From a virus: DNA of 29,047 nucleotides. The stretch spans positions 1-29,047 of the IMG/VR virus record IMGVR_UViG_3300030333_005253; one strand, written 5' to 3'. Shown piece after piece: positions 1 through 28,065 of this stretch. Position 1 is the first letter of the stretch, and each line of letters starts with the position of its first letter. A model generated the notes under the pieces. The model had not been told where the DNA came from, searched no databases, and saw nothing but the letters and a program-made list of their open reading frames with translations. The position numbers were made by a program, and so were the translations under genes.

Positions 1-197
1 TTAATATCATCTTCAGTAAGTTTATATTTCAAATACATTCTTTCCACACCATCAAAATGACGTTCTTGGAAATATTGAAGAGCATCATCTACCAAATCAT
101 CTATTTGCTCATCAGCAACATTAATCTCAACTACAGGTTCTCCTAACCTTCTTAGAGAATAGTCAATTAATTCTTGTCTACTTGCTGGTTTTGACAT
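1..197 (-). CDS. 13: Neck protein gp13-like, N-terminal part (cut by window edge)
   Basis: Only the first 65 residues are in the window; the frame stays open to base 1. The visible part starts MSKPASRQELIDYSLRRLG and continues with an acidic stretch (EINVADEQIDDLVDDALQ, about residues 24-41) and a QERHFDGVE segment. This resembles what I recall of the N-terminus of the neck protein (gp13 position) of marine T4-like phages. In T4, gp13 with gp14 forms the neck that joins the filled head to the tail. The position fits: in T4, gene 13 follows the baseplate/fiber genes. The ATG overlaps the stop of the fiber gene (TAATG), and a good ribosome binding site GGAGG lies 9 bases upstream, which settles the start. 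The gp13 name rests on recalled similarity and gene order; another virion structural protein is possible. Confidence 0.7.
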   Translation of the reverse strand, partial: MSKPASRQELIDYSLRRLGEPVVEINVADEQIDDLVDDALQYFQERHFDGVERMYLKYKLTEDDI

Positions 198-2901: not shown

Positions 2902-2927
2902 TATTATTCAAGCAAATACTATTATCT

Positions 2928-9100: not shown

Positions 9101-10663
9101 TAAGTCTACTCCATTAACTAGTAAACCCTCTCCTTTGGAAAAATTACCAGAAGTTTGTCTTAAATAGATATATTGAGTACCAGCACCAGCATAAACTACA
9201 AAACCAGTAGCACCACTACTTTTACCTTCTATAAAAGCACTTTGAGGAATATCATCAGCATCAACACTTTCATTTAAGGTTAATTTAGTCCATGTTTGAA
9301 CATCATATAATCTTAAATCATATTTTGTAGATGAATCTACATACTTAGTATCAGTAAGATTAAATGTATATATTCTTGCTTCTCCAATTTGAGCACCTCC
9401 ATCTCCTTTCAATCTATTATATAATTTTACAGTTTCTCTTTGTTTTGGTGTTCCAAGTACATTATTAACTTGTATTAGAGTTCCCATATTAAATGGAATC
9501 ATTACATTGGATAATGATTCTGTATCTCTTGGCTTATCTACATCAATAATTGTTGTTCCTGGTTTTTCAACATCATATCCCCTTACATATGCTTTTCCTG
9601 GAGATATTTTAACAGACATTAAATCATCAGAAGGTTCATTTCCTTGTTCTGTCTTTTCATTATCAAAGTATATACCATTATTACCTAGCCTATTATTTAA
9701 TGAATTATGTACTGATGGGTTGAATGGATTTACAGCATAATCTCCAGACTCATCATAAGTTCTTTCTGCCAAATAATCACGAATTACATTATATTGCGTT
9801 TTTGTATTGAGTTTTTGTATCTTACCATCTTTAACTCTTAAAAGTTCAATAAAATCAACATCATTAGTATCAGTTATTAATTTTTTGGTAAGTGATAAAC
9901 CTATTTTAAATCTATCGGCACCAGGAGCAGCATAATTAGTAAATCCTTTAGCGTTATCGTATAAAGACTCATCTTCTTTTGCACTAACAATTGTTTCATC
10001 AACCTTTAAACCAACTCTATATGATGGAGTATTGGTATAATTATCCAAAACTATGGTTTCTTCTGCAACATTTACAAAATAACCTCTAACAAAATATATT
10101 CCGTTACTAATAGATGCAGCAGATCCTATAGATGTTGCATTAGATGATATTAAAGATGCAAAAGGTGTTCCTGCAGCAATTGTTGTATTTCCATACTCTA
10201 CATTTTCAGTAGCACTTAAAGATTCTCCATCTTGGAATTGACTGAAAATGAAATTATTATCAGAATCTATATATTTTACATATATTGTTATATCATCAAC
10301 ATTAATACCATCTACAAATTCAACATGTTGAATTTTTGCTGTAGTTCCAGATACTTGACCTGTTATTTTCTTTCCTATAAAATTTTTAAGATATAATGAA
10401 ATATCAACACCAGAATTTGAAGAATTTAATTTTACTGCATAAAATTGTCCATCATAAGAAATACCACCAGGAATAATTACACTCCCTTCCTTGAACATAT
10501 GAGATCCAAAGGACTGTATTTGACCTTGAAGTACTGATTGTAAAGTTGTTAATTCTCTTGCTTGTACAGGAGCTCCTGGCTTAAATAATACCTTATAAAA
10601 ATTCTTTTCAGAATCAAAATCATCATAGTAGGGACTAATATTTAAATTTGTTTTTTGTGTCAT
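3134..10663 (-). CDS. Very large DUF4815-type virion structural protein (2509 aa)
   Basis: The N-terminus (residues about 1-70: YYDDFDSEKNFYKVLFKPG, then PVQARELTTLQSVLQGQIQ and FKEGSVIIPGG) matches the pattern I know from DUF4815 proteins of marine phage tails. Following parts: a long beta-rich region; a module near residues 1645-1780 (DPLAQTFIVGG ... APLRVQVRTVD ... LAPGREYAIVI ... YTMWTAIMGE) seen in several marine phage fiber/baseplate proteins; GG-x-x-Y repeats near 1915-1985; an LKIGNEIISYS module near 2105-2180 that recurs in the giant neighbour; and a conserved-looking C-terminus (DLKNPATSLKVLLSAYRH, LFPGYDNLTF, YAPRIRELRSIAVR). It follows gp8 with a 6-base gap and overlaps the 69-aa gene by four bases. 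Position suggests a baseplate or fiber-anchoring role where T4 has genes 9-11. I see no sequence match to T4 gp9, gp10 or gp11, so no symbol is given. Confidence 0.85.
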   Translation of the reverse strand: MTQKTNLNISPYYDDFDSEKNFYKVLFKPGAPVQARELTTLQSVLQGQIQSFGSHMFKEGSVIIPGGISYDGQFYAVKLNSSNSGVDISLYLKNFIGKKITGQVSGTTAKIQHVEFVDGINVDDITIYVKYIDSDNNFIFSQFQDGESLSATENVEYGNTTIAAGTPFASLISSNATSIGSAASISNGIYFVRGYFVNVAEETIVLDNYTNTPSYRVGLKVDETIVSAKEDESLYDNAKGFTNYAAPGADRFKIGLSLTKKLITDTNDVDFIELLRVKDGKIQKLNTKTQYNVIRDYLAERTYDESGDYAVNPFNPSVHNSLNNRLGNNGIYFDNEKTEQGNEPSDDLMSVKISPGKAYVRGYDVEKPGTTIIDVDKPRDTESLSNVMIPFNMGTLIQVNNVLGTPKQRETVKLYNRLKGDGGAQIGEARIYTFNLTDTKYVDSSTKYDLRLYDVQTWTKLTLNESVDADDIPQSAFIEGKSSGATGFVVYAGAGTQYIYLRQTSGNFSKGEGLLVNGVDLSRMVKEFVAYGTRNIKSVSQSGHTGFPEFSANTVLQRFRMRGTNQITIPTLAPNKTSFICTSTSQPFSGITTDTIISYSRPGFSTDTYNRVSAVASDGLTITLDSITGVAVSDVYDNALPTTGNATGVTTATFDVFAMAPNIRSNGGLFAPLGNSNVSSTDLTGSTLTISEQITDEDTDSNGQLSIDLAAVGITSAAYETFDQERYSVTYKDSGAQASIDSSQFNITNNQVTINGLRTGQTDNLVVDTTLVKYGIQSKIKQYNRSASIVISRSKYKQSGVGVNTSLNDGLSHSIYYGVRVQDEEICLNYPDVAKVVSVYESLDNSDPTLDRIQFTSTASVHTNAIIGEHIIGSTSKAIARVVSSPSANNLEVVYLTSDKLSSGESVVFDESKLNTEVELITLGNYKNITESFTVDKGQRDEYYDYSRIVRRDSAKEPSRRLLIVFDYYSIPSTDDGDVFTVLSYDKERYLEDIPTIGKYGIRASDTLDFRPRVSVFDPTSEWKSPFDFSARNFGTSPKYLLTSNEGSMVGYDYYLPRIDKLYLDKFGKFILEKGISSKYPKPPVKNDALMQVATINLPPYLYHPRNASISLIDNRRYTMRDIGNIEDRVENLEQVTTLSLLELDTQVLQIQDADGRNRFKSGFFVDSFKDYTSIDSNLSAVQVNTRLNELVPIVSRNSIASQLASLDEVTTQTQDFNDNFQTLDPNIQKTGDAITLKYEESDWLEQPMATTSENVNPFHVVVYNGNVELNPQNDSWVRTIQLPDNNIRITNSQNVVQNLESNINLDLGTINTTRITQSTMRVALIDEHAMAEAAEIEANGGMSVGETRVLNNSVSSSSVSNQSTSFNVDDVNTRNELVASGDEEFMRSRNTQFIATNLKPSTRYYQFLDGRSDVDFVPKLIEIATDSTLNTSGATDAFVVGETVTGYVDGVELIKFRVCSPRHKFGPFNNPTSIYTINPYDKTESISETYSLSSKILNVDTTALSTEAQGLYSGYVTTGMKLVGENGAEAYVKDLRLLSDNYGDVIGTFFLRNPNSSPVPSVRVETGTKTFKLTSSPTNERGAPGSNEISYGESRYTSTGTLNQWENTVTTTSNETVLETNLTTNATANLQINETDFGMTEIEYYDPLAQTFIVGGNVEAPSDIDLSDDVNGVFLTSVDLFFRTVDSGNAPLRVQVRTVDLGFPTLNVIGKTVTLRPTTTDANGNIISNIQTSDDGSLATNVKFPEPIYLAPGREYAIVIISANSDEYTMWTAIMGEKSVEATSIPPTENAASAVYERQFALGSLFKSQNGSIWTPNQYQDLKFKLYKANFTQETGTAYFYNPDLSRSNGYIPTLGIDPIKTLSKTATINISKLNETIPSVSTLVGILTAGRKLSGVNGKGGSATIVGRGSSVFDCGTVTEGGLNYTTDSSVDTFNYVGSGSGLKLNITSVDATTGAIGVVTFTGIADDRGKGYQDGDVVGIVTSTVGNATLSHGTGTGAKITIKQSGDIDTLFVSNLLGQVGSSGNEFATGIGVSYYNNSGTIVSTAVTVTSANATGGEYSGNYIKVSHFNHGMYSNTNKVVLSDIESSVAPTTLSASLTNTETTNITVLSGTNFTTFEGQSVSATNPGYLKIGNEIISYSSAAGNTLGISSRGVDSTVITNHDNNDLVYKYELNGVSLRRINDVEHTVANPIGIDDYHIAINMSANGVNRSVDGVPTGFPALSFSNESSVGGSRVRSTENIAYTTITPYYNIRTPGSLTSASARIRTITGTSVSGSESSFNDSGYEPVALNVPNSLTSTRIICSKVNQDEYLSGLPRNKSLTTAINFRTTDNNLSPILHLDTAFSELRISRLDKPVVNYPTDGRVNSILNDPHSAVYVSRVVDLKNPATSLKVLLSAYRHSSADFRVLYTLIRPDSSQVEQKFQLFPGYDNLTFTNESGFKVVDESLNSGLPDTFVPASLTNQFLDYEFTVDDLDLFTGYAIKIVMSGTNQAYAPRIRELRSIAVR
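3150..3155 (-). promoter_or_regulatory. Ribosome binding site of the 69-aa gene
   Basis: AAGGAG on the minus strand, 12 bases before the ATG at 3137 and 15 before the alternative ATG at 3134, inside the final codons of the 2509-aa gene. It supports the 69-aa frame as a real gene. Confidence 0.6.
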
Positions 10664-12253: not shown

Positions 12254-12261
12254 TATTTATA
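12254..12261 (-). promoter_or_regulatory. T4-type late promoter (TATAAATA) for gene 8 and the following genes
   Basis: Perfect TATAAATA on the minus strand, 18 bases before the gp8 ATG. The TAA stop codon of the giant gene (12259-12257) lies inside the box, so promoter and terminal codons are superimposed. Confidence 0.75.
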
Positions 12262-15200
12262 ATAGTTTTGGAAGAGCACCAGTACTTCTCAATCCAGTAC
12301 CTCTTCTCTGTATCACTGGGAATGTTGTTATTCCAACATCTACAACATTACCAGTTACTGCTATTGACACTGGAGAACTCGACCTAGTTCCTGTTAATTT
12401 ACCCCAAGAGAACTTACCAATCGTCTTTGTACCCATTGAAGTTGCAATTCCAACTGGATTGCTATGAATTAAAGTAGTAACAATACCTGTTGTTCCAGAA
12501 TAAGAAAAACTATCAATGATGTATATATTATCTAAGAATGTAGTTCCTATACCCACTACAGCAGAATCACTTCCTGTTCTATCAATTGATGTTGCACCAT
12601 ATCCTAAATTAGTATCAAATATATAAAGTGGATTTCCTACTTCCATTCCTGTCCATCCAGCAGTAGACTTACTTACAAAGAATTTAAATCCTAAAGTAGA
12701 AATACCAACAGTCGTTGTAGTTATACCAGTTACAATCCCAGAGAAACCTTGACCATTAACATTAGCCATATATTCGAAAGTTGGATTAGGAACTGAAACT
12801 ACAATCTGCGGTGCAATTGTATATCCTGCTCCAGAATTAGTAATTGCAAATGAATTTACAGTTCCAACTCCAGATATACCTAATGTTGCAGTTGCAGTTG
12901 ATCCAACACCCACATATGCATTACTTTGAGCATCCCATGCCTTAATATTAGGTGGTGCAGAAATTTTAATTGTAGGTGCTGTATTATAATTAGTTCCACC
13001 ATTAGTAATATGTAATCCAGATATAGTTCCAGCAGCAGATACAGTAGCAGTTATAGCAGCAGCAACTGGATATGAATTGTTAGAAATGGTAATTGTTTCA
13101 TAATTAACTGCATTATCATATTCAAACAATTCTATAGAATCAACAAATATAGAAGTTTGTGAAGTTCCTACATTACCAATTATTTTTGATACTGGATAGA
13201 TTTGTGATTCTATAGAATCTCTTGATTTATATGCTACTTCACCATTAATAACACTTTCAATTTTTTGTTTAGTCCAACTAAGAGGTTTATAATTAACATC
13301 ATCTACCCCTTTACCAGAATATACATTGGTCTCAAATTTATCAGAATAAGATAAATCATAAATTGTTCTGCTATCCTGTGTTTCAGTTTCAGCATCTTTT
13401 CTATGAACCCTTACACTATCACCTCTTTGTAGGGTTTTCTTTATACCAGTAACTAAACTATCATCAAGATTTCTTGTACCTCTATAGAAGAATATTGCAA
13501 CATTATCTTCTTCTTTTGGTGCTGTAGTAAAGACAAATGATGTACCACCCTCAAATAAATATGATTCTCCTGGATTTTGAATTATTCCATTAATAGTAAT
13601 GAATAGATTATTTTGAAGATCTACATATGAACCAGCTTGAGACTCAAAACTGAGTAGTTGATTATTATAATAGAGTGGGAACCTTACTCTCTTACCATCT
13701 TGATATTTTTTAATTGAATCAATAAAATCAAATTCACCAAATTGCCAAGCAGCAAATGTGTCTGTAAAAATTTCATCAACAGTTAATTCTAATTCTGATA
13801 CAACATTCTGCAATGTTCTAGCAGTAACTAAACCAACAGGTTTAATTACATCTCCACGTTTGAATGCATACCCATTTCTAGCAATTTTATAATCAGTAAC
13901 TTCAAAAGTATTAGAACCTAGATCAACAGTAGAAGCAGCACTAACAGCAATATCAACTAAAAGACCTGTTCCAGTTTCATCAGTAACTCCTTGTCCTAAT
14001 CTTGATATTCCCTTAATATTAAGATTTGAATAACTTGGATCTGAAACAAATACTCTAGGATTGGTATAATTTGTACCAGCAGCACCGATATTAAATGTTA
14101 ATGCACCACCACTTCCATTTGGAGATTTGCCAACATTCACGGTAAATGATGTGGTAGTTCCAACAGTTTCAACACCCAATACTTTACCATCTGTCCAATG
14201 GAATGGATCAGTTGTTCTTGGATATGAATGAAGAGTCTTATGACTATCTTGAGCACATGTAAATGTTATAGCACCTGTAGAAATTCCAATGAAACTAGTT
14301 GCTTTCTTAACTGCATTTGTAGCAGTTCCACCAGTATAAGTATGAGCATAATTTCCTGCTGTACTAATACCAACTTGAAGTTCAAATGTATTAGTGGTTT
14401 TATTAGCAATTGATATCCACTTATTGTAAATTGGATCAGTATTTCTTGGATAAGTATGACTACTAACACCACCATCTTTATCACATGTAAATGTTAATGA
14501 GTTTTCAGCAATCTTAACATAATCACCATTACTAAATCCATGAGATGCCGAAGTAACTGTCATTATTCCTGTTGTAGCAGTATAATCAGCACCAGTTATA
14601 TCTTTAGGGAGTGCACCACCTAATAGATGTACTCCAGTCGTTGTAATTGTTAATACACCAGTAGAAGGATCATATAAAGTGCCAGATGTTGCACTAAGAT
14701 TACCAGGTGTGCCACTAAGTCTTCTAATTCCATTAGTTGCACCACTTATAAAGATGTGTGTATTAACTCCAACTGGATGTGCAGTTATAGTTGCTCCACT
14801 ACCACTTGATGCAGCACCAACATTAACCTCAATGGTATTCAATGTAGTAGCAGCAATAGATACTGCCATATTATTGTATATTGGGTCTGTTACACGTGGA
14901 TATTGATGAGATGTTGAATGATTATCTCTAGAACAGCTGAATAGTAAAGAATTAGTACCAATTCCTATTGTATTACTAGTAGTAAGATTGTGGTTATTAA
15001 TAGTTAATATCAATCTACCAGAATGAGACTCATAGAACGCATCTGTGGGCGTTAGAGCACCTACTCCAGCGACAAGAATAGAATCAGTATCAGCACCTAT
15101 GAATCTATGTTCATATCCTTTATCAGTTACTGCTATTCCAATAGAAATAATATCATTATATCCTTGACCATATGTTAAATCACCATACCAAGGCATAACA

Positions 15201-18200
15201 TCTCCACTACCAACATAAGTATGTGGAATAGTACATACACCAACATCAGCAGTGAATGTATTTACTGAAGCAATTCCTGTGATATTAAATGGTCTATCAT
15301 TAATAGTGTCTGGGAATATAGTAGTAGTAACTCCTGCGTGTTCTGCAGTACATGTAAAATGAAGTCCAACCATAGTAACTTCATTAGTTTCACCAATAAC
15401 TAATCCATGCTGCTCTACAGTTGTTACATCCATTAATCCAGTTACATTATTATAGGATGCAGTACTAATTGATAGAGCAGAACCAGTTGTAGCAAATCCA
15501 ACAACTGATGTAATAGAACCACCAGCACCAGTTATAGGTCTTATTTGTGCTCCTAAAAGAGGTGCATATCCAATTCCACCAGTAGCACCAAGTGAAACAA
15601 CAACACCTCCTCTTGGTAATTGATTCATATTTACATCTGATTCGGAAATATAAACTTCTCCACCCAAATCAGTACCATCATTAGTAGTAATACCACTAAA
15701 GCGAACAGTTGATACACCTGCTATATTTACTTCTGGATCTATTATTTCAAAATTATTTTCTGGATTATTTGATGTAGATGGAGTTTGGAATATACTATTA
15801 ATGAATAAAATACCATTTCCACCAGTAGTTCCAATACCAGCAGTATTTGCACCACCTACTGTTAAAGTAAATGATGTAGCAATACCTGTAAATTGATCTG
15901 AAATATCATCATATATTTGGTTTGTATCATAATTTTGTCTTAAAAATACTCTTCCATTAAAGTCAGACTTTGGAAAATCTAAATTACTATTATCTTTTAG
16001 AATTGTTGGGGTTCCTGTAGGTGGTGTAATGAAATGAATATTCTTACCTACAATATTATAAGAACCTTTATAAAGTCTTACATTTGATCCATCTGTATGT
16101 GATGTTGCAGAAGAACCAACTACAGCTCTATCAACATTAACTATAGTAGATGCTCCAACTCCAGTTATTGGTCCAATAGCAGTTGTCCCAAACCCAACAT
16201 TTCTAACTTTTACATATTCATCATTAATTCTTAAAATATCTTCTGGAGCTATTGTGCCAATACCACTAAGAGCAAATATTGTTGATGCAGTACCAATTTG
16301 ACCACCATTTCCAGATAAAGTATGTAATATTGGAGTATAAATTAATGGATATTGAGTAATATTATCAATAGATATTAAAGATTTCTCATTTGATTTTGCC
16401 ATTGATAATTCATGAGCATTTCCTTCTCCAGATGACGCAAATGTTGCATTAGTTCCTGCTTCTGCCAATGCTCTAGTTGTGGCAATTTGGAAACTATCAT
16501 CAGTAACTTTAATAGCAAAAACTGATGAAGGTAAAGGTGTACCTGTACTATCAGTCATTGCAGTTGATCCAACTCCAACAAATGTAGCCTTGGGTGTGTA
16601 TTTTAACTCTTCACCTGTACTAAAGAAATGATTTTTAATAGTGAAAGTACCAGTAGCTAAATTTAGATCATTAGAATCTTTAGGATTAAATGATTTTGCA
16701 AAAATATAATCACCGTTATATGTTGCAGGGAATTCAGTTCTATTAATTCTCCTACCTTTAAGTGCATTATATCCTTTAGTACTAATAGATTCTACGACAT
16801 TTCCATAAGTAGCATCTGGTGGTGTATTAACAGTGTCAACAAAAGTATAAAAACACTCATTAAAAGATGATATTTTAATTTCAGATGTCATTGATGCATC
16901 TGGATAGAATTTTAATATAAAATTATCTCCAGAATAAACTCCACCAAAAGTACCAATACCTTGAGCAGAATCATAAGCTGTAGTACTTGCAACAGAAAGA
17001 AATGGAGATTGTTGAACATAAACATTAGTTGTTCTATCATTAATTGTTAGAACTTCATGTAAAGCCTTTGATACTCCCATACCAACTTCAACATATGATT
17101 TAACAGCATTAAATAAATTTTTATTTAAACTGAATACAGTTGTTGCAGCTGCAGAAACAGTTGATTCAAAACTAGATTGATATATTGAAGTTCTTTCTTG
17201 ACCATCATCCTGTGTAGTTAATTTAAATCTATAAGTACCTTCACCAGTTGCAGTTGTTCCAAATCCAACAATTTTGGACTTAAGACTAACATCATGTTCT
17301 GTATCATTAGTATAATTAAGTGATAATAATCCAGATGAAATATCAGCATTAAATGATCCTATAGGAGAATCAGAAGTAAATTTCTTATCAGAATCAAAAT
17401 AATAATCAGAAATATATGTATTAGTTCCATCATGTACTAAAAATATATCAACAAAATTCATTTCTCTTGTTGTATTATCAATAACTTGTGTATTGACAAA
17501 TAAAGAGTTAAATTTATGTGTCCCAACTCCTATAATTGAACTTGTTATACCTGCTACATTTGTAGTAGAAGCAACACCCACAGCAGCACCAGTTAAATCA
17601 ATAAATCCTACTGTTTGAGTGCCAATCCCAGATGTGGAACCATCAAAAATAGATTTTCTATATTTTAGATCATAATCAGTAAAAATTGTATCTTTAGGAG
17701 TAAATCTTAAATAACTATCATTAAATTCATTAACATATATTGAGAATGTTCCATAACTTTTGTCTTCAAGATGATTAACTTCAGTACCAGCATTATCTAA
17801 ACTTCCTTTTTCCAGTAAGAAATTATTATCACCATCATTTAGAATAACTAATTCTGTTAATTGAACTTGATTATTCTCAAAAGCTTCATTTACTCTTACT
17901 AAAATACTATCGTATGAAAGTGATGAACTTAATTTAAATAAATCAACAAATGTATCAGGATCATCACCTAAATTAGAAAATTGTTGATTTATATTATCAA
18001 TTGGTAAAACTGCATTAGTTTTACAAATAGTATAATCTGTTAATTTTTGTGTTTTTAATTTTAAGAATTTAGATGAATCTCCAACTAAATCAATATCTAT
18101 AGCAAGATCAAAATTATTAATAGTATCTACTCTATTTTCTTCTAATATATCTTTTATTACAATTGAACCTACAGAACTTCCAATACCCACGTTGGTAGTT

Positions 18201-21200
18201 GAAGTTATCCCAGTATCTGAAAAATTCTTTAATCCACTAGTATGAACTAAATTGTTGACAGGAGTACTTGACTCTTTCCATGTAATAGGACTTTTAATAG
18301 TGTATGAAAGATTTTGATAGTAATCATTATCTGGAATTACTTGGTTATCTTCATCTAATTTTCCAACACTATCTTGCCAACCAATATCTTTTTTATTTGA
18401 ATAATCAACTAAAAATCTACCAGTATTATACTCAATTAATTCTATTGTTGCTATATTTCCAGATTGTTTACCAGTGATATTTTGATTTACTGATAGTTCA
18501 TATGTACCATATACTTTAATTAATCCTTTTATATCAACATCAGTAATTACTAAATCTCTTTCTATATTATCTACAATAAGTTTTTCACCTACAATAAAAG
18601 TAGATTTTTCTTGAGTAATATTAAATGAAGGATAATCATCTTCATGTATAATAGTTCCAATTGAATCTTGGATAGTTTTAGCAATACCAGTTGTGGTTGT
18701 TAAACCAGCCACATGAATTGTTACTTTATCTTGTACTCCAGATTTATCATAACTATAAACTTCGAGGAATTTATATCCATAATCTGCAGAGTTAAATCCA
18801 GATCCTGCAGTACCAACTTTCTGTATTCCTTCTATGAATACCTTATCACCAGTTTTAAATGGATCTGCTGAGAAATTTAATGGTGGAGTTGTTAAAGTAC
18901 AAGTAAATGTAGTTCCTATACCAGCAGAAACAGAATCAACTTCTACAATACTAATTCCATTTGAATTATTTTTAGTGTATAATTTTGTAGTTTTTTCAGA
19001 AAGTCCTTTTGGTGTTTGTTCTATACGTACTTTACTAATAGAATTACCAACTACTTCAGCTTCTAAAATACCACTATCAATTACTTTTCCACTATCAGTA
19101 TTTACAATTACAATATCTGGTGCTTTAGTATAATTTCTACCACCATTTGTGACTGTAATAATACCTATAGTATTAGAATCTTTAATAGTAATTAATGGAG
19201 ATATAAAAGCAGTTGGTTGTAAAGTTTTATCCGAAGAGTATTCAAAACCTTCATTAATAATTCTCACTTTTCCACTATTTCCTATAGTATTTGATTCTGC
19301 AACTATCGAAGCATCTATTCCATTAACAGAATTTGTTGAGCTAAAATCTGGTACTTTTTTATATCCACTTCCACCAGAAACAATATTAATTTTACTTATG
19401 GGACCTTGTGCACTTACAGAAGTAGTTGTATATTTTAATATAGAGCAATCTGAAGAACCATACGATAATCTTTCAGGAATTTCATCTAAATCAATATTAA
19501 ATGTAGTAGTTCCTACACCAGAAAGAACATAATCTGAAGTATAAGAACTATCAACAAATAATATTTCTGAATGATTATTTACTAAAGTATCTGCAGTACT
19601 CAAATATCCAGATTTTTCTAAATTATAATATAATTTTGTAGGTAATATATTTGTAGTTGTAGAATCAGTATTATAATTAATTGTTACTGCGGCACCCACT
19701 ACTCCTCCAGTAGTATCAATACCAATTATGGTAAATCCAGAAGTTGTAGCTGTGGAAACAAATTCATTCTTAAATTCATTATCATAGAAAAGTTTAAAAT
19801 AATGATTATCTAATGAAGAATCAGATACATCAAAAACTAAATTATTACCTCTAACTGCTGTAATTCTTGGATTAATCGGTGATATGGTATGAGTTTGCCC
19901 TCCTGTATTTGCAAATCCAATGACAGTGGGTGGATTAACTTTGGAGTCAATAAGTGTTTCACAAAGTTTAATATAGTCATTATTAACCTTATAGGTATAA
20001 TAAGAACCTGTAGATAATCCAGAAATAGGTAATGTAGACGAATAACTGACTCTATCTCCAGTATTTAAATTATGATCTAATATTTCAATTTGATTAGTTG
20101 TCGTATTAATCTTAGAAGCGTCAACTGTACGTGGGTTAATTATAATATTTTTAATATTATCATCCCATTTAACAGATACTGAAGTAGCAGTTGTACCTAC
20201 ACCAACAGCAAATTTTGGTAAAGATGTCAATTCTACTTTATCACCCAATCTCATTCCATGATCAGTTGAAACAGAAACAACACAATTAACTCTGTCAAGT
20301 GATGCTTGTTTTTGAATAAATTGACTTTCTATTAAAAATTCATCATTATCTTCTAATTGTGCTACAGTATTACGGAAATATACCTCTTCATATGCATCAC
20401 CAGTGTGATCAGTACCAATACCAGTCTTTATTCCAATAGTGTTTATTGTCTTATTAACAACATATACATTAGTGGTAAGTCCAGATGCTGGTAAATTAAA
20501 TGGTGTTGCTGAAACATTGGTTGAAATTGAAAGAGTCCCACCAGTAGGTATGGTTAAAGTGACTGCTTCATTAGTCTCAAATGGATGATTTTCAATATAA
20601 ATTGTCCTAGTTGGAATAGTTCTTGTAACCTGACCATCTCCAAAATCAAATGTTCTAACATTTGCATAGGATCCAACTGTTGCTATTCCAGTTAAGGTAC
20701 CAACTCCTATAGATTCACTAGCATTAAAATATGCCTTTTTATTAATAGTAGACTCAAAATAATCTAATTTTTTAGGAATTGTGAATGAATCTGGTCTAAA
20801 TTCTAATTTTGTAGATATACTATGGGAAGTTCCAGGTAATCCTCTTCTAATTCTAAGTATATTGAGATTTTTATATACATCTAATAATTTTACAGTTTCA
20901 CTTCCAATTCCTATAGTACTACCAATAGAAACTTCTGGAATTTGGTTTACATATATTTCTGTAGTAGCAGCTCCTGGAGATGCATCAGTGCCAGTAATTG
21001 GTGCAATAAGATTTGCATAATATGAAGTAATACCTATCTTATGTTGGCCATTCAATTCTGTAAGATAAGTACTAAATCCAGAAACTACAATATTATCACC
21101 TTCTCTTAAATTATGTTCTGGTAAAATAGATACTTTTACTTTACTTTCATCTTCCCATGTAAAAATTGCTGTTGGATAATTTTCTATAGTAGTTTCTACA

Positions 21201-24200
21201 TTAACTATATCTTTTCCTTCTATTGAAGATATTTTTGATATTAACCCATTACCACTTGTACCCTTATTATCAAAAGTTAAAACATCATTTACTTTATAAT
21301 TATTTCCTTTGTTAATAATATTCATACTATTAACAAATCCATCAGTTACAGATTCAATAACTGCTTTTTGTCTTGTAATTTCATTTGTTTCAATAATAAA
21401 ATCATTTCCTGCAAAATTATCAGATATTTTATATGGAAAAGTATTTCTAAGTAAATTTGAATTATTTAAATCAAAATCTTGATCTAAAGTAATATTATCA
21501 GATAATGTACTACATCTATATGAATCACCTACAAAATATGGAAATTCTGGATTTCCATCATTATCAATTGTAGCATAGTATGCGTAAACACCATTAGGAA
21601 ATTCTGGAGTTTTTGCAAATCTACCATTATGCTCATCAAGATCTCCATTACCTATAAATTTATAATCTTCTACAAAGAATCCCTCTGGGAATAGTGTAGT
21701 TGATGGTCTATCTTCAATGTTAGAAGCATCTTTTACATATCCAGTAATTAATCTTCGTGCATTATTACTAATTGAAGGATCTTCATATCCATATGAACCA
21801 TAAATTGGATTACCATCATAAGCCCACCCAATTATATTAGATGCAACACTTCCATCACTATTTTCATTAAATCTTTGTCTTAAAGTATCAAAATATCCAG
21901 AAATTGAATATTGTAAATTATTATTAGATTCTTCAAGATATTCACTTATTGGGGAATTACTATTTCGACGATTTTCCGCAGTATTAACTGATAATTTTCT
22001 GACTTTACCATCAATATATGCATTAGATCCTGCAGATTTAACTAAAATAGTAGTATGTAATGGAGTTGTGGAATATCCAATACCTGGATTTATAACTTTA
22101 ACATCAACTATTTTTCCATCACTAATAACGGGTCTCAATTCGGCACCAGAACCTAATTCATCTCTTCCACTAACATCTTTAACTATTAAATCGGGAATAG
22201 AACTATATTCCTTTCCTCCAAATTCTATATTTACATTTGTAAGTTCAGTTCCAATAACAATTGGTTTTAATTCAGCATTTTTACCACTTTTTATAGATAT
22301 ATTTGGTTTTTTCTCAAAATTTAATATATCTGAACCATAACCAGCTCCGCCTTCATATACATATGCATCAACAATACTACCCCTTACTATGGGAGTAGTC
22401 GTGATTACTTGAGAAGTACTACCAATTCCAGCAGAAGTATAATTTACATTAACTTCAATTGGAAGATAGTAGAAGTTATGATAACTACTTCCAGCTCCCA
22501 CAGATGTAATATTTACAGGTTTTCTTCTTTCATAGAATGATGTTATTGTTCCTCCTACACCAGCATTTGCAACATTGAAAGAATGATCATCTACCTTTAA
22601 AATTCTATATTGAGTAGATGTTGTTGTTATTCCAGTAGATGTGGTTAAACCTGTAATATCTACTCCAACACCACCATCTAAAGGATCATTAGAATATAAT
22701 ATCTTATCGCCATCATTAAATCCATGATTTTTAAAATTAATAGTGTTACTAACAGTATTAATTCCTGTAGGCTTAACAATTAATTTTCTATTAGTATACC
22801 CACTACCACCATTAATTACATCTATTTCTGATAATGTAAATTTACTAGAAACAGTTTTAAATTTATGAATTCCTGTTGAATTAATACCACTAAACACAAT
22901 AGTATTGATTCCACTAGAATATTCACCAAATGATGGATATAGTTTAACCGTCAAATTATTGTCAATTGATGTAAAATACCTTCCACCATTAGACAATGTT
23001 GATGTACCAATACCAACTCCTGTTGCTAAATTATTATTAGAATCATATATTACTTCTTGACCATCAGTAAAATAATGATTCTCTAAGAATATTAATTGAG
23101 ATCCTCCTATTGTTACACCACCAGAATTTACAGTTCCTCTTCCATCAAATTTAACTTCTCTAGATCTTTTTGTAACTATTGGTTCAAGAACTGCTCCTTC
23201 ACCATTACCACCACTTACTGTAACTGAAGATACGTCAGCAATATCAAAATCTAATTCATCTACATAAACTTTTTCAACACTTCCACTAATTACAGGTCTA
23301 GCATAGGCAGTTGATCCTATTCCAGCAGAAATTGATATTTTTGGTAAATTAATAGCATCATAACCACTACCACTGTTTAATACATTTAAAGACTCTAATT
23401 TCCCATAATATACATTATCATATGATTTATAACCTTTAATCTCAACACCATTAATCAACATTCCAATATTTTCTGGAGTAGTTAATTCATTAGATCCATT
23501 TTTAATATTTGATGGTAATGCAAATTTCTTTAATAATTTTTGTGCTCCAATTGTAGAAGATCTCTGTGAATACAATGTAAATGTATGTGTACCAAAATCT
23601 CCTGATGGTGGTGAAAGATTTAAAGATACATCATCTTCAATAAAAGATGATGAATTATATAACTTAATAGATTGTCCATCAGATAAAACTTTAACATAAT
23701 ATGATCCTGTTATTAATCCACTAATAGGGACACTATCTGGCTGATAATATACCCTGTCGCCAGTAATAAATGGTGCTTTATTGTCAAATTTTATAGTAGT
23801 ATATTCACCATTTGATAATATATCAGTTAAATTACTAACAGAATTTATTTTATCAGAATTAATATTTTTTGTTATTTGATAAGTATATGGTGCAGTATAT
23901 CCTTCCATCCCTGATGGTAATGAATTAGATGCAACATATGCATATTCATCATCATCTTTATCAACATAAAGATTTTGTATGTCAGATATAATTTTATCAT
24001 TTCCATATTGAATTGGGAGTATATTACTATTTGCTTTATTGATCTTTCTTCTCAATGCATAAGAAATACCTGAAACAGGTGTAAAACCAGTAAACTCTTT
24101 TAATTGTATTGAACGTCCATTTATATCAACAATATAAGGTTCTGAAATAGAACCAAAATCAACTTCACCATCACTAAACAAACTTGTAGTAGTTGAATTA

Positions 24201-25717
24201 AATGATTCTGTTGTAGGATATACTACTTTATCAGAACCACCTAACCCATCTTTTTCTACGATTTCTATTCTATCTCCTATTTTTAAACTTGATCTATCAA
24301 TATCACTTTTAAGGGTTAATGATAAAGTCTCTCCAAAATTTAAAATATCATACGTAGAACTAGTATTGTATATCCAAGAATTTGCAAATATTTGTTTATA
24401 AGTTTTAGTACCTTCTGTTGGATTTTCTATTAAATCACCAAGACTCTTAACTGAGATTATATCACCCTCAGAAACCTTTAAATTCTTAGATACTTGCTCG
24501 AATTTAGATAATACTCCAGTTAATCTTAATTCTACACGTTTTGAAGAGTCTCCATCTTCAAATCCATAATAAATTTCATCAGATCTAATATTATCAGCAA
24601 TATCTATGTCTTTATTAACTCCAGAAGATGAAGACCATGTGCATCCTATAAATTGATTGATACTTTTATCTGAATAGGTAATACTATTAATACCAGATAT
24701 TACCATTCCAGTTTTTGCAAATCCAACTGTAGAATCTACAGAAATTATAGAAGAACCTATAGAAACTTCTTCAAGACTTTTTGTACTTGGTGTGATATTA
24801 AAATTACCTTCAACATAATTATTATCATCATATCCTATGAAGAGTGAAAGTTTAAAATATTGCTTATTTTCTCTCGTAAATGGTTCAACTTCTGATATTG
24901 ATGCTAATGTATTAGAATCTGTAGATTTTGTAAGGGTTTGTCCTACTAATTTTGTAGGATTTCCAGAAATTATTTCAGCAATCGCAACTTCTCTTCTAAT
25001 ATAGTTTGCAGAAGATGGCTTAATTAAAAATTCTTCTAAATTTACTACAGTTGGTGTTACTCCATATAAAACATTAAAAAGAATTCTAATTGATTCATCA
25101 GTTCCTTTTGATTGATAGAAAGATTTTACTTCTTTTATAAAATTACTAACATCTAATTTTTTATCTAAATTAATATTTTCAAATCCAGGTGCAAAAGTAT
25201 ATCTTAATTTTTTATAAAAATCCTTAAGAAATAAGGAACTTAAATTCTGTACATTCTTATTAGCAAGATGTCCATCCTCAGAAGTAGAAGAAAATACAAG
25301 TTCTTCTTGACTTACATCACCGTGATATGACGTAATACCACTAAATCCACGTTTACATCCAGTAAATGTATTAGTTGTTAGACCAGTATATGTAATTATT
25401 TCATTATCAATCTTTAATAGTCCATATTCTGATGGAAATCCTTTTGTACTATTAACAGTAATAGTAGTATCTGTAGATGTAACATCAGATTCAAGAGTAG
25501 TGCTATCTACTACAACTTCAGGTGTTAAATTATCAAGTTTCAAATATTGATCTAAATTTTCTGCAATATCAACAGGACCACCTTGATATTCTTGAGAAAT
25601 ATAATATTGCTTTAAAAAATCTACAGCTTTTGGATTTTCATCCAAAAGAAATTCAGGTAATTGGTTATTAATTATCTGTTGAATCTTTACTCTAGATTCA
25701 AATCCAGTCTTTATCAT
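12257..25717 (-). CDS. Giant modular baseplate structural protein (4486 aa), gene 7 position
   Basis: One open frame of 13.5 kb, almost half the window, between gp6 and gp8, exactly where T4 has gene 7 (1032 aa). I see no residue-level match to T4 gp7, so orthology is inferred from order only. Residues 1-60 (SRVKIQQIINNQLPEFLLDE, AVDFLKQYYISQEYQGGPVD) look like an assembly domain. The rest is a mosaic: LKIDNEIITYTG modules (near 81-132, with weaker copies near 321, 1583 and 3142); many GG-x-x-Y units; at least nine H-x-F-x-x-G-D units; a YHYH-type domain (about 1293-1403); LFINSIFQTP (about 3310); three or four Cys/His-HxYPRxTDP repeats (about 3450-3840); and FITINGIIQNPGESY with FEGGTSFVF (about 4036-4080). 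Predicted all-beta, no membrane segment. It starts one base after the gp6 stop (TAATATG) with no clear ribosome binding site, so it may depend on coupling. A tape-measure role is unlikely. Confidence 0.85.
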   Translation of the reverse strand: MIKTGFESRVKIQQIINNQLPEFLLDENPKAVDFLKQYYISQEYQGGPVDIAENLDQYLKLDNLTPEVVVDSTTLESDVTSTDTTITVNSTKGFPSEYGLLKIDNEIITYTGLTTNTFTGCKRGFSGITSYHGDVSQEELVFSSTSEDGHLANKNVQNLSSLFLKDFYKKLRYTFAPGFENINLDKKLDVSNFIKEVKSFYQSKGTDESIRILFNVLYGVTPTVVNLEEFLIKPSSANYIRREVAIAEIISGNPTKLVGQTLTKSTDSNTLASISEVEPFTRENKQYFKLSLFIGYDDNNYVEGNFNITPSTKSLEEVSIGSSIISVDSTVGFAKTGMVISGINSITYSDKSINQFIGCTWSSSSGVNKDIDIADNIRSDEIYYGFEDGDSSKRVELRLTGVLSKFEQVSKNLKVSEGDIISVKSLGDLIENPTEGTKTYKQIFANSWIYNTSSTYDILNFGETLSLTLKSDIDRSSLKIGDRIEIVEKDGLGGSDKVVYPTTESFNSTTTSLFSDGEVDFGSISEPYIVDINGRSIQLKEFTGFTPVSGISYALRRKINKANSNILPIQYGNDKIISDIQNLYVDKDDDEYAYVASNSLPSGMEGYTAPYTYQITKNINSDKINSVSNLTDILSNGEYTTIKFDNKAPFITGDRVYYQPDSVPISGLITGSYYVKVLSDGQSIKLYNSSSFIEDDVSLNLSPPSGDFGTHTFTLYSQRSSTIGAQKLLKKFALPSNIKNGSNELTTPENIGMLINGVEIKGYKSYDNVYYGKLESLNVLNSGSGYDAINLPKISISAGIGSTAYARPVISGSVEKVYVDELDFDIADVSSVTVSGGNGEGAVLEPIVTKRSREVKFDGRGTVNSGGVTIGGSQLIFLENHYFTDGQEVIYDSNNNLATGVGIGTSTLSNGGRYFTSIDNNLTVKLYPSFGEYSSGINTIVFSGINSTGIHKFKTVSSKFTLSEIDVINGGSGYTNRKLIVKPTGINTVSNTINFKNHGFNDGDKILYSNDPLDGGVGVDITGLTTSTGITTTSTQYRILKVDDHSFNVANAGVGGTITSFYERRKPVNITSVGAGSSYHNFYYLPIEVNVNYTSAGIGSTSQVITTTPIVRGSIVDAYVYEGGAGYGSDILNFEKKPNISIKSGKNAELKPIVIGTELTNVNIEFGGKEYSSIPDLIVKDVSGRDELGSGAELRPVISDGKIVDVKVINPGIGYSTTPLHTTILVKSAGSNAYIDGKVRKLSVNTAENRRNSNSPISEYLEESNNNLQYSISGYFDTLRQRFNENSDGSVASNIIGWAYDGNPIYGSYGYEDPSISNNARRLITGYVKDASNIEDRPSTTLFPEGFFVEDYKFIGNGDLDEHNGRFAKTPEFPNGVYAYYATIDNDGNPEFPYFVGDSYRCSTLSDNITLDQDFDLNNSNLLRNTFPYKISDNFAGNDFIIETNEITRQKAVIESVTDGFVNSMNIINKGNNYKVNDVLTFDNKGTSGNGLISKISSIEGKDIVNVETTIENYPTAIFTWEDESKVKVSILPEHNLREGDNIVVSGFSTYLTELNGQHKIGITSYYANLIAPITGTDASPGAATTEIYVNQIPEVSIGSTIGIGSETVKLLDVYKNLNILRIRRGLPGTSHSISTKLEFRPDSFTIPKKLDYFESTINKKAYFNASESIGVGTLTGIATVGSYANVRTFDFGDGQVTRTIPTRTIYIENHPFETNEAVTLTIPTGGTLSISTNVSATPFNLPASGLTTNVYVVNKTINTIGIKTGIGTDHTGDAYEEVYFRNTVAQLEDNDEFLIESQFIQKQASLDRVNCVVSVSTDHGMRLGDKVELTSLPKFAVGVGTTATSVSVKWDDNIKNIIINPRTVDASKINTTTNQIEILDHNLNTGDRVSYSSTLPISGLSTGSYYTYKVNNDYIKLCETLIDSKVNPPTVIGFANTGGQTHTISPINPRITAVRGNNLVFDVSDSSLDNHYFKLFYDNEFKNEFVSTATTSGFTIIGIDTTGGVVGAAVTINYNTDSTTTNILPTKLYYNLEKSGYLSTADTLVNNHSEILFVDSSYTSDYVLSGVGTTTFNIDLDEIPERLSYGSSDCSILKYTTTSVSAQGPISKINIVSGGSGYKKVPDFSSTNSVNGIDASIVAESNTIGNSGKVRIINEGFEYSSDKTLQPTAFISPLITIKDSNTIGIITVTNGGRNYTKAPDIVIVNTDSGKVIDSGILEAEVVGNSISKVRIEQTPKGLSEKTTKLYTKNNSNGISIVEVDSVSAGIGTTFTCTLTTPPLNFSADPFKTGDKVFIEGIQKVGTAGSGFNSADYGYKFLEVYSYDKSGVQDKVTIHVAGLTTTTGIAKTIQDSIGTIIHEDDYPSFNITQEKSTFIVGEKLIVDNIERDLVITDVDIKGLIKVYGTYELSVNQNITGKQSGNIATIELIEYNTGRFLVDYSNKKDIGWQDSVGKLDEDNQVIPDNDYYQNLSYTIKSPITWKESSTPVNNLVHTSGLKNFSDTGITSTTNVGIGSSVGSIVIKDILEENRVDTINNFDLAIDIDLVGDSSKFLKLKTQKLTDYTICKTNAVLPIDNINQQFSNLGDDPDTFVDLFKLSSSLSYDSILVRVNEAFENNQVQLTELVILNDGDNNFLLEKGSLDNAGTEVNHLEDKSYGTFSIYVNEFNDSYLRFTPKDTIFTDYDLKYRKSIFDGSTSGIGTQTVGFIDLTGAAVGVASTTNVAGITSSIIGVGTHKFNSLFVNTQVIDNTTREMNFVDIFLVHDGTNTYISDYYFDSDKKFTSDSPIGSFNADISSGLLSLNYTNDTEHDVSLKSKIVGFGTTATGEGTYRFKLTTQDDGQERTSIYQSSFESTVSAAATTVFSLNKNLFNAVKSYVEVGMGVSKALHEVLTINDRTTNVYVQQSPFLSVASTTAYDSAQGIGTFGGVYSGDNFILKFYPDASMTSEIKISSFNECFYTFVDTVNTPPDATYGNVVESISTKGYNALKGRRINRTEFPATYNGDYIFAKSFNPKDSNDLNLATGTFTIKNHFFSTGEELKYTPKATFVGVGSTAMTDSTGTPLPSSVFAIKVTDDSFQIATTRALAEAGTNATFASSGEGNAHELSMAKSNEKSLISIDNITQYPLIYTPILHTLSGNGGQIGTASTIFALSGIGTIAPEDILRINDEYVKVRNVGFGTTAIGPITGVGASTIVNVDRAVVGSSATSHTDGSNVRLYKGSYNIVGKNIHFITPPTGTPTILKDNSNLDFPKSDFNGRVFLRQNYDTNQIYDDISDQFTGIATSFTLTVGGANTAGIGTTGGNGILFINSIFQTPSTSNNPENNFEIIDPEVNIAGVSTVRFSGITTNDGTDLGGEVYISESDVNMNQLPRGGVVVSLGATGGIGYAPLLGAQIRPITGAGGSITSVVGFATTGSALSISTASYNNVTGLMDVTTVEQHGLVIGETNEVTMVGLHFTCTAEHAGVTTTIFPDTINDRPFNITGIASVNTFTADVGVCTIPHTYVGSGDVMPWYGDLTYGQGYNDIISIGIAVTDKGYEHRFIGADTDSILVAGVGALTPTDAFYESHSGRLILTINNHNLTTSNTIGIGTNSLLFSCSRDNHSTSHQYPRVTDPIYNNMAVSIAATTLNTIEVNVGAASSGSGATITAHPVGVNTHIFISGATNGIRRLSGTPGNLSATSGTLYDPSTGVLTITTTGVHLLGGALPKDITGADYTATTGIMTVTSASHGFSNGDYVKIAENSLTFTCDKDGGVSSHTYPRNTDPIYNKWISIANKTTNTFELQVGISTAGNYAHTYTGGTATNAVKKATSFIGISTGAITFTCAQDSHKTLHSYPRTTDPFHWTDGKVLGVETVGTTTSFTVNVGKSPNGSGGALTFNIGAAGTNYTNPRVFVSDPSYSNLNIKGISRLGQGVTDETGTGLLVDIAVSAASTVDLGSNTFEVTDYKIARNGYAFKRGDVIKPVGLVTARTLQNVVSELELTVDEIFTDTFAAWQFGEFDFIDSIKKYQDGKRVRFPLYYNNQLLSFESQAGSYVDLQNNLFITINGIIQNPGESYLFEGGTSFVFTTAPKEEDNVAIFFYRGTRNLDDSLVTGIKKTLQRGDSVRVHRKDAETETQDSRTIYDLSYSDKFETNVYSGKGVDDVNYKPLSWTKQKIESVINGEVAYKSRDSIESQIYPVSKIIGNVGTSQTSIFVDSIELFEYDNAVNYETITISNNSYPVAAAITATVSAAGTISGLHITNGGTNYNTAPTIKISAPPNIKAWDAQSNAYVGVGSTATATLGISGVGTVNSFAITNSGAGYTIAPQIVVSVPNPTFEYMANVNGQGFSGIVTGITTTTVGISTLGFKFFVSKSTAGWTGMEVGNPLYIFDTNLGYGATSIDRTGSDSAVVGIGTTFLDNIYIIDSFSYSGTTGIVTTLIHSNPVGIATSMGTKTIGKFSWGKLTGTRSSSPVSIAVTGNVVDVGITTFPVIQRRGTGLRSTGALPKLL
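14200..15370 (-). repeat. Protein-level repeats with Cys/His and HxYPRxTDP motif in the giant gene
   Basis: Three clear copies of C-x-x-D-x-(H/G)-x-x-x-H-x-Y-P-R-x-T-D-P end near 14940, 14492 and 14266 (CSRDNHSTSHQYPRVTDP, CDKDGGVSSHTYPRNTDP, CAQDSHKTLHSYPRTTDP). A divergent one ends near 15364 (CTAEHAGVTTTIFPDT). Most are preceded by a TG-x-(L/M)-x-(V/I)-T segment, some with an HGFSNGD-type motif, and an LTFTC strand, giving a unit of about 75 residues or a multiple. Confidence 0.75.
21510..21840 (-). other. YHYH-type domain within the giant baseplate protein
   Basis: Residues about 1293-1403 read WAYDGNPIYGSYGYED ... ITGYV ... FFVEDYKFIGNGDLDEHNGR ... FPNGVYAYYATID ... FPYFVGDSYR. This fits the YHYH domain pattern (DGNPIYG...GY, DEHNGR, PNGVYAYY, PYFVG) that occurs in bacterial secreted proteins and in marine phage baseplate proteins. 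Its biochemical role is not established as far as I know. Confidence 0.7.
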
Positions 25718-25718
25718 A

Positions 25719-27644
25719 TTACTGTCTTATTAAATTCCCATTTAAATAACTTGATGTATAATAATCTCTAGAGAATAATACTCCAGATATTTCATCGCCA
25801 GAAGCAATTACGTCTTTAACCATATTTATTGAACTTGAAGAGATGTTAAAATTCAAATATAAATCTTTTAAACCGAGAATATCATTGGATTCAGGAAAAG
25901 CTTGTATCTCAATGATATTATTAGATTTAACTGTTGACGTGATATTTATAGTATTTAATAGTATTTCACCTTTAATGTAATCAACAGTTCCTGCAGATTT
26001 AACAACAACCCTAGTTTCTTCATTACTAACTGGTCTTACTATTGATATAATTCCAGTTTTCTTATCACTATTAGGTATATCTGTCAAATATACTGTACCT
26101 GGTTCTGTTGCTATAGTAAATCCAGTCGATTTTATATTATATCCATCTCTATTTACATGGAATCTATTACCAAAGCAAAGTTCATATTGTCCAAATTGAT
26201 TTATTAATGCTCTTAAATCTCTTCTAATTCTTACTTTAGTAATATTAGATGTTATGGCACCATCAGTAATATCAATTAGTTGCTGAATTTTACTATATTT
26301 AAATCTTCCACCAAATGAATTTAAATCCACTGAATTGGAATAAGTAGTCAATGTATTGATTACACTTTCTTTTAATGAATTTGCAGTAGATACTTTAGTG
26401 GCATCATAATATACAGAAGAATCAATTTCCACATATAGTATTTTAATATCTTCTATTCTCTGTCTTATACCAGATATAGAGTATTGTTTTAATTGTGATA
26501 AAACTCTAGTTTTATTAAAGTCAGAGATAAAGGTTCCATTTTTTGGTTTAATACTAATAGTTACAGTTCCATATTCAGGAGGATCTAATTCTTCACCACC
26601 AACAACAGAAACACTTTCTGTATCGGGATATATCTTCTTAATAATAGCCTCGTAATCACGTGCTGTAACCGCCCTGCTCTGTGCTGAATATATCTTAGGT
26701 GCAAAATACTTAATAGAGTCAATTGACTCTATTTCACCCCCATTCTGAGATGCCTGGTTAGTTGTAACAGATATATCTGATGGATTGAGAAGAGTTCCAC
26801 TAGATAGTTCTAATCTTCCAGAAAAAGCAAAATTCCTTACCCCATTACCTTCTTTACCATTACTAATAATATAATTTGCAGTAATTATATTACCATCATT
26901 ATCCTTACCAGTTCCTAATTTTTTACCTATTAATCCATCACCGAATAATAATTCATATTGTTCATCTTGCACTTCTTGAAGAAGATAAATTTGAGATAGG
27001 GAAGTTACACCAATAATATTATCTACAGGAAAATATTGTATTCCTAATCCATTTTCATTTTCATTTTTAATATACACTGTAAGTGTAGAAGTATCAATAG
27101 ATGAATTATTAATAATAAATTTTTGATCTAATGATCCATCATGTGTAAATTGTTTCGTTAAGTATGTTCCTTCATATATTTCTATATTTTCAAATGATGC
27201 TATAAAATCACCTGATGCTGTTTCACCAAAAGTTCTTGTTATATTTTCTGGAATTGAAAATACATATGAAGTATTATTGACATTTCCTGTACATATAAGA
27301 CCTCTCTTGAGCGTCACAGTGCCTGATTCATTACCATCAGGTCTTTTTACACTGAACGTTATTTCTGCCTTTGCTGCCGTCTTAGAACGGGGTACATATC
27401 CTATATTTCTAGCTAATGAAACTACATTTTCACGAAGAGTTGCAGAATCCAAAAAGGATTCATTAACAATCATATTAGAATTAATTGCAGTAATATACGT
27501 ATTATATGCTAATGTATCAAGTAATATCGAAAAATTAGACCCTTCAAAGTCGAAATCCGTGAAATCTGAATTTGCACGAAGATAATCCTTAATGGAAGTC
27601 TTTATCTGATCAAAATCTAAGTTTGTGTATTTAGTAAACCCCAT
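25719..27644 (-). CDS. 6: Baseplate wedge protein gp6
   Basis: Homologue of T4 gp6, whose dimers form the continuous ring that links the baseplate wedges around the hub. At 641 aa it is close to T4 gp6 (660 aa). The N-terminal signature is clear: DFDFEGSNFSILLDTLAYNT (residues 31-50) followed by NMIVNESFLDSATLRENVVS (57-76) and ARNIGYVPRSKTAAKAEITF. Further blocks include YELLFGDGLIGKKLG, ITANYIISNGKEGNG and FAPKIYSAQSRAVTARDYEA, the last two typical of gp6/baseplate J-like wedge proteins. It starts one base after the gp25 stop (TAA A ATG) and ends one base before the giant gene. No separate promoter precedes it, so it is presumably transcribed with gene 25. Confidence 0.95.
   Translation of the reverse strand: MGFTKYTNLDFDQIKTSIKDYLRANSDFTDFDFEGSNFSILLDTLAYNTYITAINSNMIVNESFLDSATLRENVVSLARNIGYVPRSKTAAKAEITFSVKRPDGNESGTVTLKRGLICTGNVNNTSYVFSIPENITRTFGETASGDFIASFENIEIYEGTYLTKQFTHDGSLDQKFIINNSSIDTSTLTVYIKNENENGLGIQYFPVDNIIGVTSLSQIYLLQEVQDEQYELLFGDGLIGKKLGTGKDNDGNIITANYIISNGKEGNGVRNFAFSGRLELSSGTLLNPSDISVTTNQASQNGGEIESIDSIKYFAPKIYSAQSRAVTARDYEAIIKKIYPDTESVSVVGGEELDPPEYGTVTISIKPKNGTFISDFNKTRVLSQLKQYSISGIRQRIEDIKILYVEIDSSVYYDATKVSTANSLKESVINTLTTYSNSVDLNSFGGRFKYSKIQQLIDITDGAITSNITKVRIRRDLRALINQFGQYELCFGNRFHVNRDGYNIKSTGFTIATEPGTVYLTDIPNSDKKTGIISIVRPVSNEETRVVVKSAGTVDYIKGEILLNTINITSTVKSNNIIEIQAFPESNDILGLKDLYLNFNISSSSINMVKDVIASGDEISGVLFSRDYYTSSYLNGNLIRQ
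25943..25950 (-). promoter_or_regulatory. Possible internal late promoter (TATAAATA) in gene 6
   Basis: Perfect TATAAATA on the minus strand inside gene 6, about 225 bases before the giant gene. It shares the following bases TC with the sites at 12254 and 2933. It could give extra transcripts of the giant gene, or be chance in AT-rich DNA. Confidence 0.3.
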
Positions 27645-27645
27645 T

Positions 27646-28047
27646 TTATCTCGTTGCTTCTAAAATAAATGTATATTCTTGTGATGGAAACTCTTGTCCA
27701 ATAATATCAAATAGAACAGTTACTTCAAATGAATTTTGTTCTGGTGTAGGATTAACTTGAACCTGTACATTATTTACTCTTGGCTCAAAATTATCAATTG
27801 CAGTCTCAATTTGACTCTGAATAACTGATGCAGTACCAAAATCAACGAATCCAAATAAGCTACTTCTTACTTCAGAACCTAACAATGAGTTAAAAAAGCG
27901 TTCAGTAGGTATAGTTTCGACTATATTTCTTACAGATCTACGTATCGCATTCTCATTTTTTAATATTGGTAGATCTTTTGTGATTGGATGAGGTTCAAAA
28001 GACAATGTTATGTCTTTAAATGCCCTTGATATCCTTTTAATCGCCAT
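27646..28047 (-). CDS. 25: Baseplate wedge protein gp25
   Basis: Homologue of T4 gp25 (gp25/GPW family), the small wedge protein at the centre of contractile-tail baseplates that contacts the sheath. From the ATG at 28047 it is 133 aa, matching T4 gp25 (132 aa). Visible family pattern: residues 25-70 with DLPILKNENAIRRSVRNIVE, TERFFNSLLGSEVRSSLFG, and a C-terminal beta half (RVNNVQVQVNPTPEQNSFEV). The family was once called lysozyme-like, but a purely structural role is now accepted for such proteins. A TTG two codons upstream (28053) would add Met-Phe; I prefer the ATG because it gives the family length. It is the first gene after a late promoter and the terminator at 28087-28111, so it opens the baseplate transcription unit. 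Confidence 0.93.
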   Translation of the reverse strand: MAIKRISRAFKDITLSFEPHPITKDLPILKNENAIRRSVRNIVETIPTERFFNSLLGSEVRSSLFGFVDFGTASVIQSQIETAIDNFEPRVNNVQVQVNPTPEQNSFEVTVLFDIIGQEFPSQEYTFILEATR

Positions 28048-28065
28048 AAACAAGGAGTTTTTCTT

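Follow-up and report, generated by a model that had tools for sequence, protein, structure and literature searches.

A 4486-residue protein in the gene 7 slot of a cyanophage baseplate operon and its divided gp7 core

Genes, modules and relatives of the giant protein

The window, by which we mean the whole 29,047-nucleotide stretch of viral DNA that was analysed, carries a baseplate operon in the order gp25-gp6-giant-gp8-DUF4815 (Table 1). The giant open reading frame starts with ATG, begins 1 nt past gp6 and runs uninterrupted to a stop 21 nt short of gp8, occupying 13,461 of the 29,047 bases (46.3%). A preliminary description of this DNA had placed a 4486-residue protein, taking 46% of the window, in the gene 7 position between gp6 and gp8, where T4 encodes 1032 aa. 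The frame call and the PHROG and Pfam matches of the neighbouring genes bear out this assignment, and the 1032-aa length of T4 gp7 is likewise confirmed. The calculated mass of 484 kDa gives 2.9 MDa for six copies, in agreement with the approximately 3 MDa estimated earlier. In comparisons with two relatives from other contigs, dN/dS stayed between 0.2 and 0.5 in each 450-codon block, indicating that the entire length is coding and maintained by purifying selection.

Table 1. Features of the window and of the giant protein (residue numbers refer to the giant)
Feature	Positions	Strand	Evidence
gp25, 135-aa frame, ATG two codons in	27646-28053	minus	PHROG 261; Pfam PF04965
gp6, 641 aa, adjoining gene, expected binding partner	25719-27644	minus	PHROG 219, 650 bits; Pfam PF21379 (Gp6-like)
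Giant gp7 (baseplate wedge subunit), 4486 aa, P0001	12257-25717	minus	ORF call; PHROG 2885; dN/dS
N-terminal helical segment, residues 8-62, by position the gp7 core-bundle helix-turn-helix	25532-25696	minus	m1 motif; helices 12-58
gp7 core part 2, residues 158-267, SKGT motif (190-224) and VGQT motif	24917-25246	minus	hhalign; HMM; PDB search
Insert between core parts 2 and 3, residues 268-2439, ~2170 residues, repeated beta modules (GGxGY, HxFxxGDxV and IDNEIITYTG types)	18401-24916	minus	self-HMM map
YHYH-like domain inside the insert, residues 1284-1385	21563-21868	minus	Pfam PF14240, E 2.7e-21
gp7 core part 3, residues 2440-2515, DNDYYQNLSY...HTSGL motif	18173-18400	minus	hhalign; HMM
Presence/absence repeat array, residues 3421-3870, YPRxTDP type	14108-15457	minus	alignment of relatives; self-search
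Conserved C-terminal peptide PVIQRRGTGLRSTGALPKLL and stop	12257-12319	minus	same C-terminus in other giants of the group
gp8, 521 aa	10670-12235	minus	PHROG 438, 510 bits; Pfam PF09215 (Phage-Gp8)
DUF4815/'VrlC' structural protein, 2509 aa, downstream of gp8	3134-10663	minus	Pfam PF16075, E 2.1e-58; PHROG 358

The DUF4815/VrlC gene directly after gp8 encodes a second giant, with a putative role in the baseplate. Near the left edge of the window ends a 789-aa fibre-like protein (197-2566) built of repeated 'LNVSGVSTF'-type units. Both gp8 and gp7 contain a glycine-rich module that matches PHROG 460 (head closure Hc2) and is shared among wedge/neck proteins; head closure was rejected as a function because the PHROG matches sit on these glycine-rich modules, present in both proteins. 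The gp7 of pelagiphage HTVC008M (33435-36485) is likewise annotated 'head closure Hc2', apparently via PHROG 3465; it lies between gp6 and gp8 and has all three gp7 motifs described below.

As the preliminary description proposed, a short N-terminal domain is followed by repeated beta-rich modules. A self-search with window profiles located IDNEIITYTG-type modules at residues 83-145 and 321-400, HxFxxGDxV-type modules near 640-690, 875-905, 980-1050, 1865-1938 and 3001-3080, GGxGY-type modules near 770-820, 1160-1240, 2090-2250 and 4224-4312, and a repeat array at 3396-3900. The word 'mosaic', used earlier for this arrangement, fits its composition, but not shuffling among relatives: 11/11 aligned relatives have residues 1-3420 in collinear and nearly complete form, and only the array at 3420-3870 varies in presence. 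S-SRM01 and several IMG/VR giants lack the array, ACG-2014f, S-CAM7 and S-SM2 have part of it, and in P-SSM2 it is expanded. YHYH domains are predicted to be metal-dependent hydrolases on the basis of conserved histidines (PMC7824862). In the window protein the His pair is replaced (VYAYY), and it is missing too in the other 11 aligned giants (VYAYF/VYAYY), so that, judging from these residues, the domain here more likely serves in binding or structure than in catalysis. The C-terminal peptide follows the pattern P-x-IQRRG-x-GLR-x-TGALPK in the group's giants, and no other ORF of the loci examined showed it.

PHROG 2885 ('baseplate wedge subunit') matches the giant almost end to end (residues 2-4472 to profile positions 2-4178 of 4179, 3445 bits). 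A tblastn search with the first 489 residues found the giant N-terminus in 462 phage records, nearly all from cyanophages (record names Synechococcus, Cyanophage, Prochlorococcus or Marine virus), and the order gp25-gp6-giant-gp8 is common to the window, P-SSM2, S-SRM01, ACG-2014f, S-CAM7 and S-SM2. The giant is thus not peculiar to the window phage: giants are the rule in its marine cyanophage relatives (Table 2), and the protein typifies a cyanophage family that is already known. The present analysis adds the identification of its core as gp7, the division of that core and the correction of a published report that gp7 is absent.

Table 2. gp7 proteins compared and first residues of their core motifs
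Phage	Form	Length (aa)	m1/m2/m3 starts
T4	T4 gp7	1032	648/725/865
phiM12 (Sinorhizobium phage)	smaller form, same slot	1007	7/60/927
Mosig (pelagiphage)	smaller form, same slot	874	4/172/602
HTVC008M (pelagiphage)	smaller form, same slot	1016	4/161/748
S-CRM01	smaller form, same slot	1454	9/151/1305
Window	giant	4486	8/158/2440
P-SSM2 (Prochlorococcus phage)	giant, AAX44489, annotated 'baseplate wedge initiator'	5195	8/164/2460
Syn9	giant, annotated 'putative fiber'	6076	6/659/3442
S-SZBM1	giant, S-SZBM1_208	6619	5/665/3519
S-SRM01	giant	3895	
ACG-2014f	giant	4225	
S-CAM7	giant	4314	
S-SM2	giant	4156	

gp7 core motifs and the spacing between them

According to the preliminary description, the giant had no visible match to T4 gp7. 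Profile comparison overturned this claim for the N-terminal SKGT segment and located a second core motif near residue 2480. A profile of residues 1-300 and their homologues, searched against 177,635 distinct PDB sequences, returned two matches, both gp7 (T4, E 2.4e-4; Klebsiella phage KP1-type, E 1.5e-3) and both on the SKGT segment. In hhalign, giant residues 190-224 paired with T4 gp7 724-758 at E 7.7e-6 with giants alone and 2.6e-6 with compact forms added, and the full giant alignment matched T4 gp7 at E 1.4e-5, these E-values being given for one template. An HMM of the second motif (m2) built without T4 scored T4 at 24.7 bits, compared with 5.1 for the best shuffled T4 sequence, and the PHROG 2885 profile matches T4 gp7 at 730-758 (E 1.3e-4). 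At the sequence level, the first part of the core is thereby securely tied to T4 gp7 through the SKGT segment. The preceding helical motif (m1) occurs in all Kyanoviridae and phiM12 homologues; its match to T4 648-688 is not above shuffles and not significant alone.

The resemblance is remote. The Pfam Gp7_helical, domain V and domain VI models match T4 and PspYZU05, but neither the giant nor the compact cyanophage, pelagiphage and phiM12 forms, making the giant a distant homologue outside those Pfam families. NCBIfam gave nothing for residues 1-300, and phmmer with the whole giant against PDB sequences gave chance zinc-finger matches only. A relation to T4 gp7 is found at the N-terminus (residues 1-300) and not at the other end, where hhalign found no match for the C-terminal 627 residues; by that test, the last 400 residues do not correspond to T4 domain VI.

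The third motif (m3), YYQxxSY...HxxG, lies at giant residues 2465-2495 and has six invariant positions across 12 homologues; in phiM12 gp7 it forms the very C-terminus, and its HMM matches residues 932-986 there with i-E 5.4e-11. Between compact pelagiphage gp7 and the giant, hhalign paired two blocks that keep their order, 1-288 with giant 1-281 (E 8e-17) and 476-841 with giant 2087-2530 (E 3.7e-11). The T4 counterpart would be at ~865-903 (HPVGF), a placement backed by its location and by the conserved H and G residues; the score is weak (8.6 bits, surpassed by 1/300 shuffles, the best reaching 11.6), and in the PDB-wide search KP1 gp7 ranks 2 at E 0.39. Residues 2440-2515 are linked strongly to the gp7 of pelagiphages and of the Sinorhizobium phage, and weakly to that of T4.

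Judged from sequence, the giant carries the gp7 core as two parts, at residues ~1-267 and ~2440-2515, and in the alignment of 11 relatives the core segments fall among the better conserved bins. The distance from SKGT to YYQxxSY...HxxG is ~2170 residues in the giant versus ~107 in T4, and past the third motif the giant extends for another ~1970 residues. In 12/12 homologues examined from outside Straboviridae, the three motifs keep the same order, and the m2-m3 interval spans 331 to 2749 aa (479 in HTVC008M, 2678 in Syn9). The scores of most of these homologues are non-independent, because they went into the motif models; T4, PspYZU05, Syn9 and S-SZBM1 did not. The motif starts indicate growth between m2 and m3 and after m3, in Syn9 and S-SZBM1 also between m1 and m2, whereas T4 gp7 is extended N-terminally instead.

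A mediocre AlphaFold2 model of residues 1-480 (mean pLDDT 60.0) contained helices at 12-58 (low pLDDT), 159-175 and 190-218. Its best Foldseek match was 9f4a_A0 (E 2.8e-3), a 1031-aa chain that we take as KP1 gp7 because the 1032-aa protein of that baseplate entry is gp7; 5iv5_BJ of T4 (1004 aa, gp7 by length) ranked third (E 0.026), neither match being significant alone. The model of residues 3381-4251 was unusable (pLDDT 39.8).

Virion evidence and a possible role in the wedge

Published mass spectrometry places homologues of the giant in the virion, in line with the earlier suggestion of a virion protein. The 6619-aa S-SZBM1_208, which motif HMM comparison identifies as homologous to the window protein, was detected in CsCl-purified virions with 71 peptides, 13.5% coverage and an emPAI of 0.41; the emPAI values of gp6 and gp8 were 0.23 and 1.37 (PMC9146016). 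S-CREM2 ORF122, a protein of 1937 aa in the gp7 position by its coordinates, yielded 91 unique virion peptides (PMC10665884). A structure of a baseplate with a giant gp7 was looked for and not found.

The core bundle of contractile tails unites one gp7 orthologue with two subunits of gp6 type (XM1, PMC10457771). We consider it probable that the giant is the cyanophage gp7, with its core building the (gp6)2-gp7 wedge and its insert and tail forming the periphery of the baseplate. The core would join two copies of gp6 into a heterotrimer that builds the wedge ring, with one giant per wedge and six per virion. The ~2170-residue insert, at the place of domain V in T4, and the ~1970-residue tail would project from the wedge to the baseplate periphery, where they may hold fibres or touch the host; host contact could then be relayed by way of gp7 and gp6 to gp25, the sheath initiator. 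Residues 3420-3870 are the best candidate for a variable, host-facing element, and the long arms or skirt round the baseplate proposed in the preliminary description are plausible.

The insert and tail could instead be compact, folded round wedge and hub into a thicker T4-like baseplate without long arms, an arrangement compatible with gp7 identity to which we assign an appreciable, if minor, chance. The collinearity of residues 1-3420 in all relatives is more in keeping with such a fixed structural role than with an adhesin free to vary, whereas the string of small repeated modules and the presence/absence array fit an extended part.

A more far-reaching proposal, in which the split wedge core, insert and giant tail replace T4 gp9/gp10/gp11 with an extended host-sensing skirt of ~3 MDa made by a single gene, seems to us rather unlikely. 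Searches of the five closest genomes with a giant found no T4 gp9/gp10-N domain, and gp11 turned up in none of the Kyanoviridae tested. Specifically, PF07880 was found in Syn9, S-SZBM1 and Mosig, and not in P-SSM2, S-SM2, S-SRM01, ACG-2014f, S-CAM7, S-CRM01, S-PM2, HTVC008M or phiM12; the GP11 domain occurred only in T4 and PspYZU05 among the genomes tested. HTVC008M and phiM12, with compact gp7, also do without these domains, while Syn9 and S-SZBM1 have both a giant and a gp9/10-like domain, so absence of the domains does not follow the size of gp7, and the correlation expected from replacement by the giant is unsupported.

T4 gp7 has been stated to be absent from cyano- and pelagimyophages and substituted by VrlC (PMC7029224). 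Together with the 'putative fiber' annotation of the Syn9 copy and the fibre-like appearance of the beta modules and YHYH-like domain, this statement would favour a fibre or adhesin in the gene 7 slot, the true gp7 having been lost and VrlC/DUF4815 standing in its place. We regard this as highly improbable: the giant and the pelagiphages HTVC008M and Mosig all have the gp7 core motifs in order, the PDB-wide profile search matches gp7 only, and the VrlC/DUF4815 gene is also there, downstream of gp8. By sequence homology, the reported absence is contradicted, with gp7 homologues in both groups beside the VrlC/DUF4815 gene.

There is equally little to recommend processing of one translated chain into several shorter virion proteins: the peptide coverage of the S-SZBM1 homologue is low, and the same stretch in S-SKS1 (19897-32283) forms four ORFs (707, 1571, 1062 and 592 aa), but coding similarity there runs on in another frame across the breaks, every other complete giant is a single ORF, and the N- and C-termini are both conserved within one chain. 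The S-SKS1 breaks are accordingly frameshifts, due to sequencing error or decay, rather than gene boundaries, and we rejected the four ORFs as natural pieces.

T4-like cyanophages and pelagiphages abound among marine viruses. The split gp7 core tells structural biologists which segments to assign to the wedge of their baseplates and which to seek at the periphery, and corrects the published view of these phages as lacking gp7.

Comparison with known gp7 proteins

With T4 gp7 (PDB 5HX2, 5IV5) the giant shares the SKGT segment, a collinear VGQT motif and, more weakly, the H-x-x-G motif at 865-903. T4 gp7 has an N-terminal extension of ~645 aa that the giant lacks, and is without both the long insert and the C-terminal tail. 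XM1 gp17, a minimal contractile-tail homologue of 242 aa, also has no such insert. The compact gp7 proteins of HTVC008M, Mosig and phiM12 (874-1016 aa) resemble the giant in having the three core motifs in order, with the core beginning at residue ~4-9, but differ in an m2-m3 distance of 331-764 aa and in little or no C-terminal tail. P-SSM2 gp7 combines the same slot, split core and modules, with 39% identity over residues 1-3886 and the C-terminal part, and differs in its expanded repeat array.
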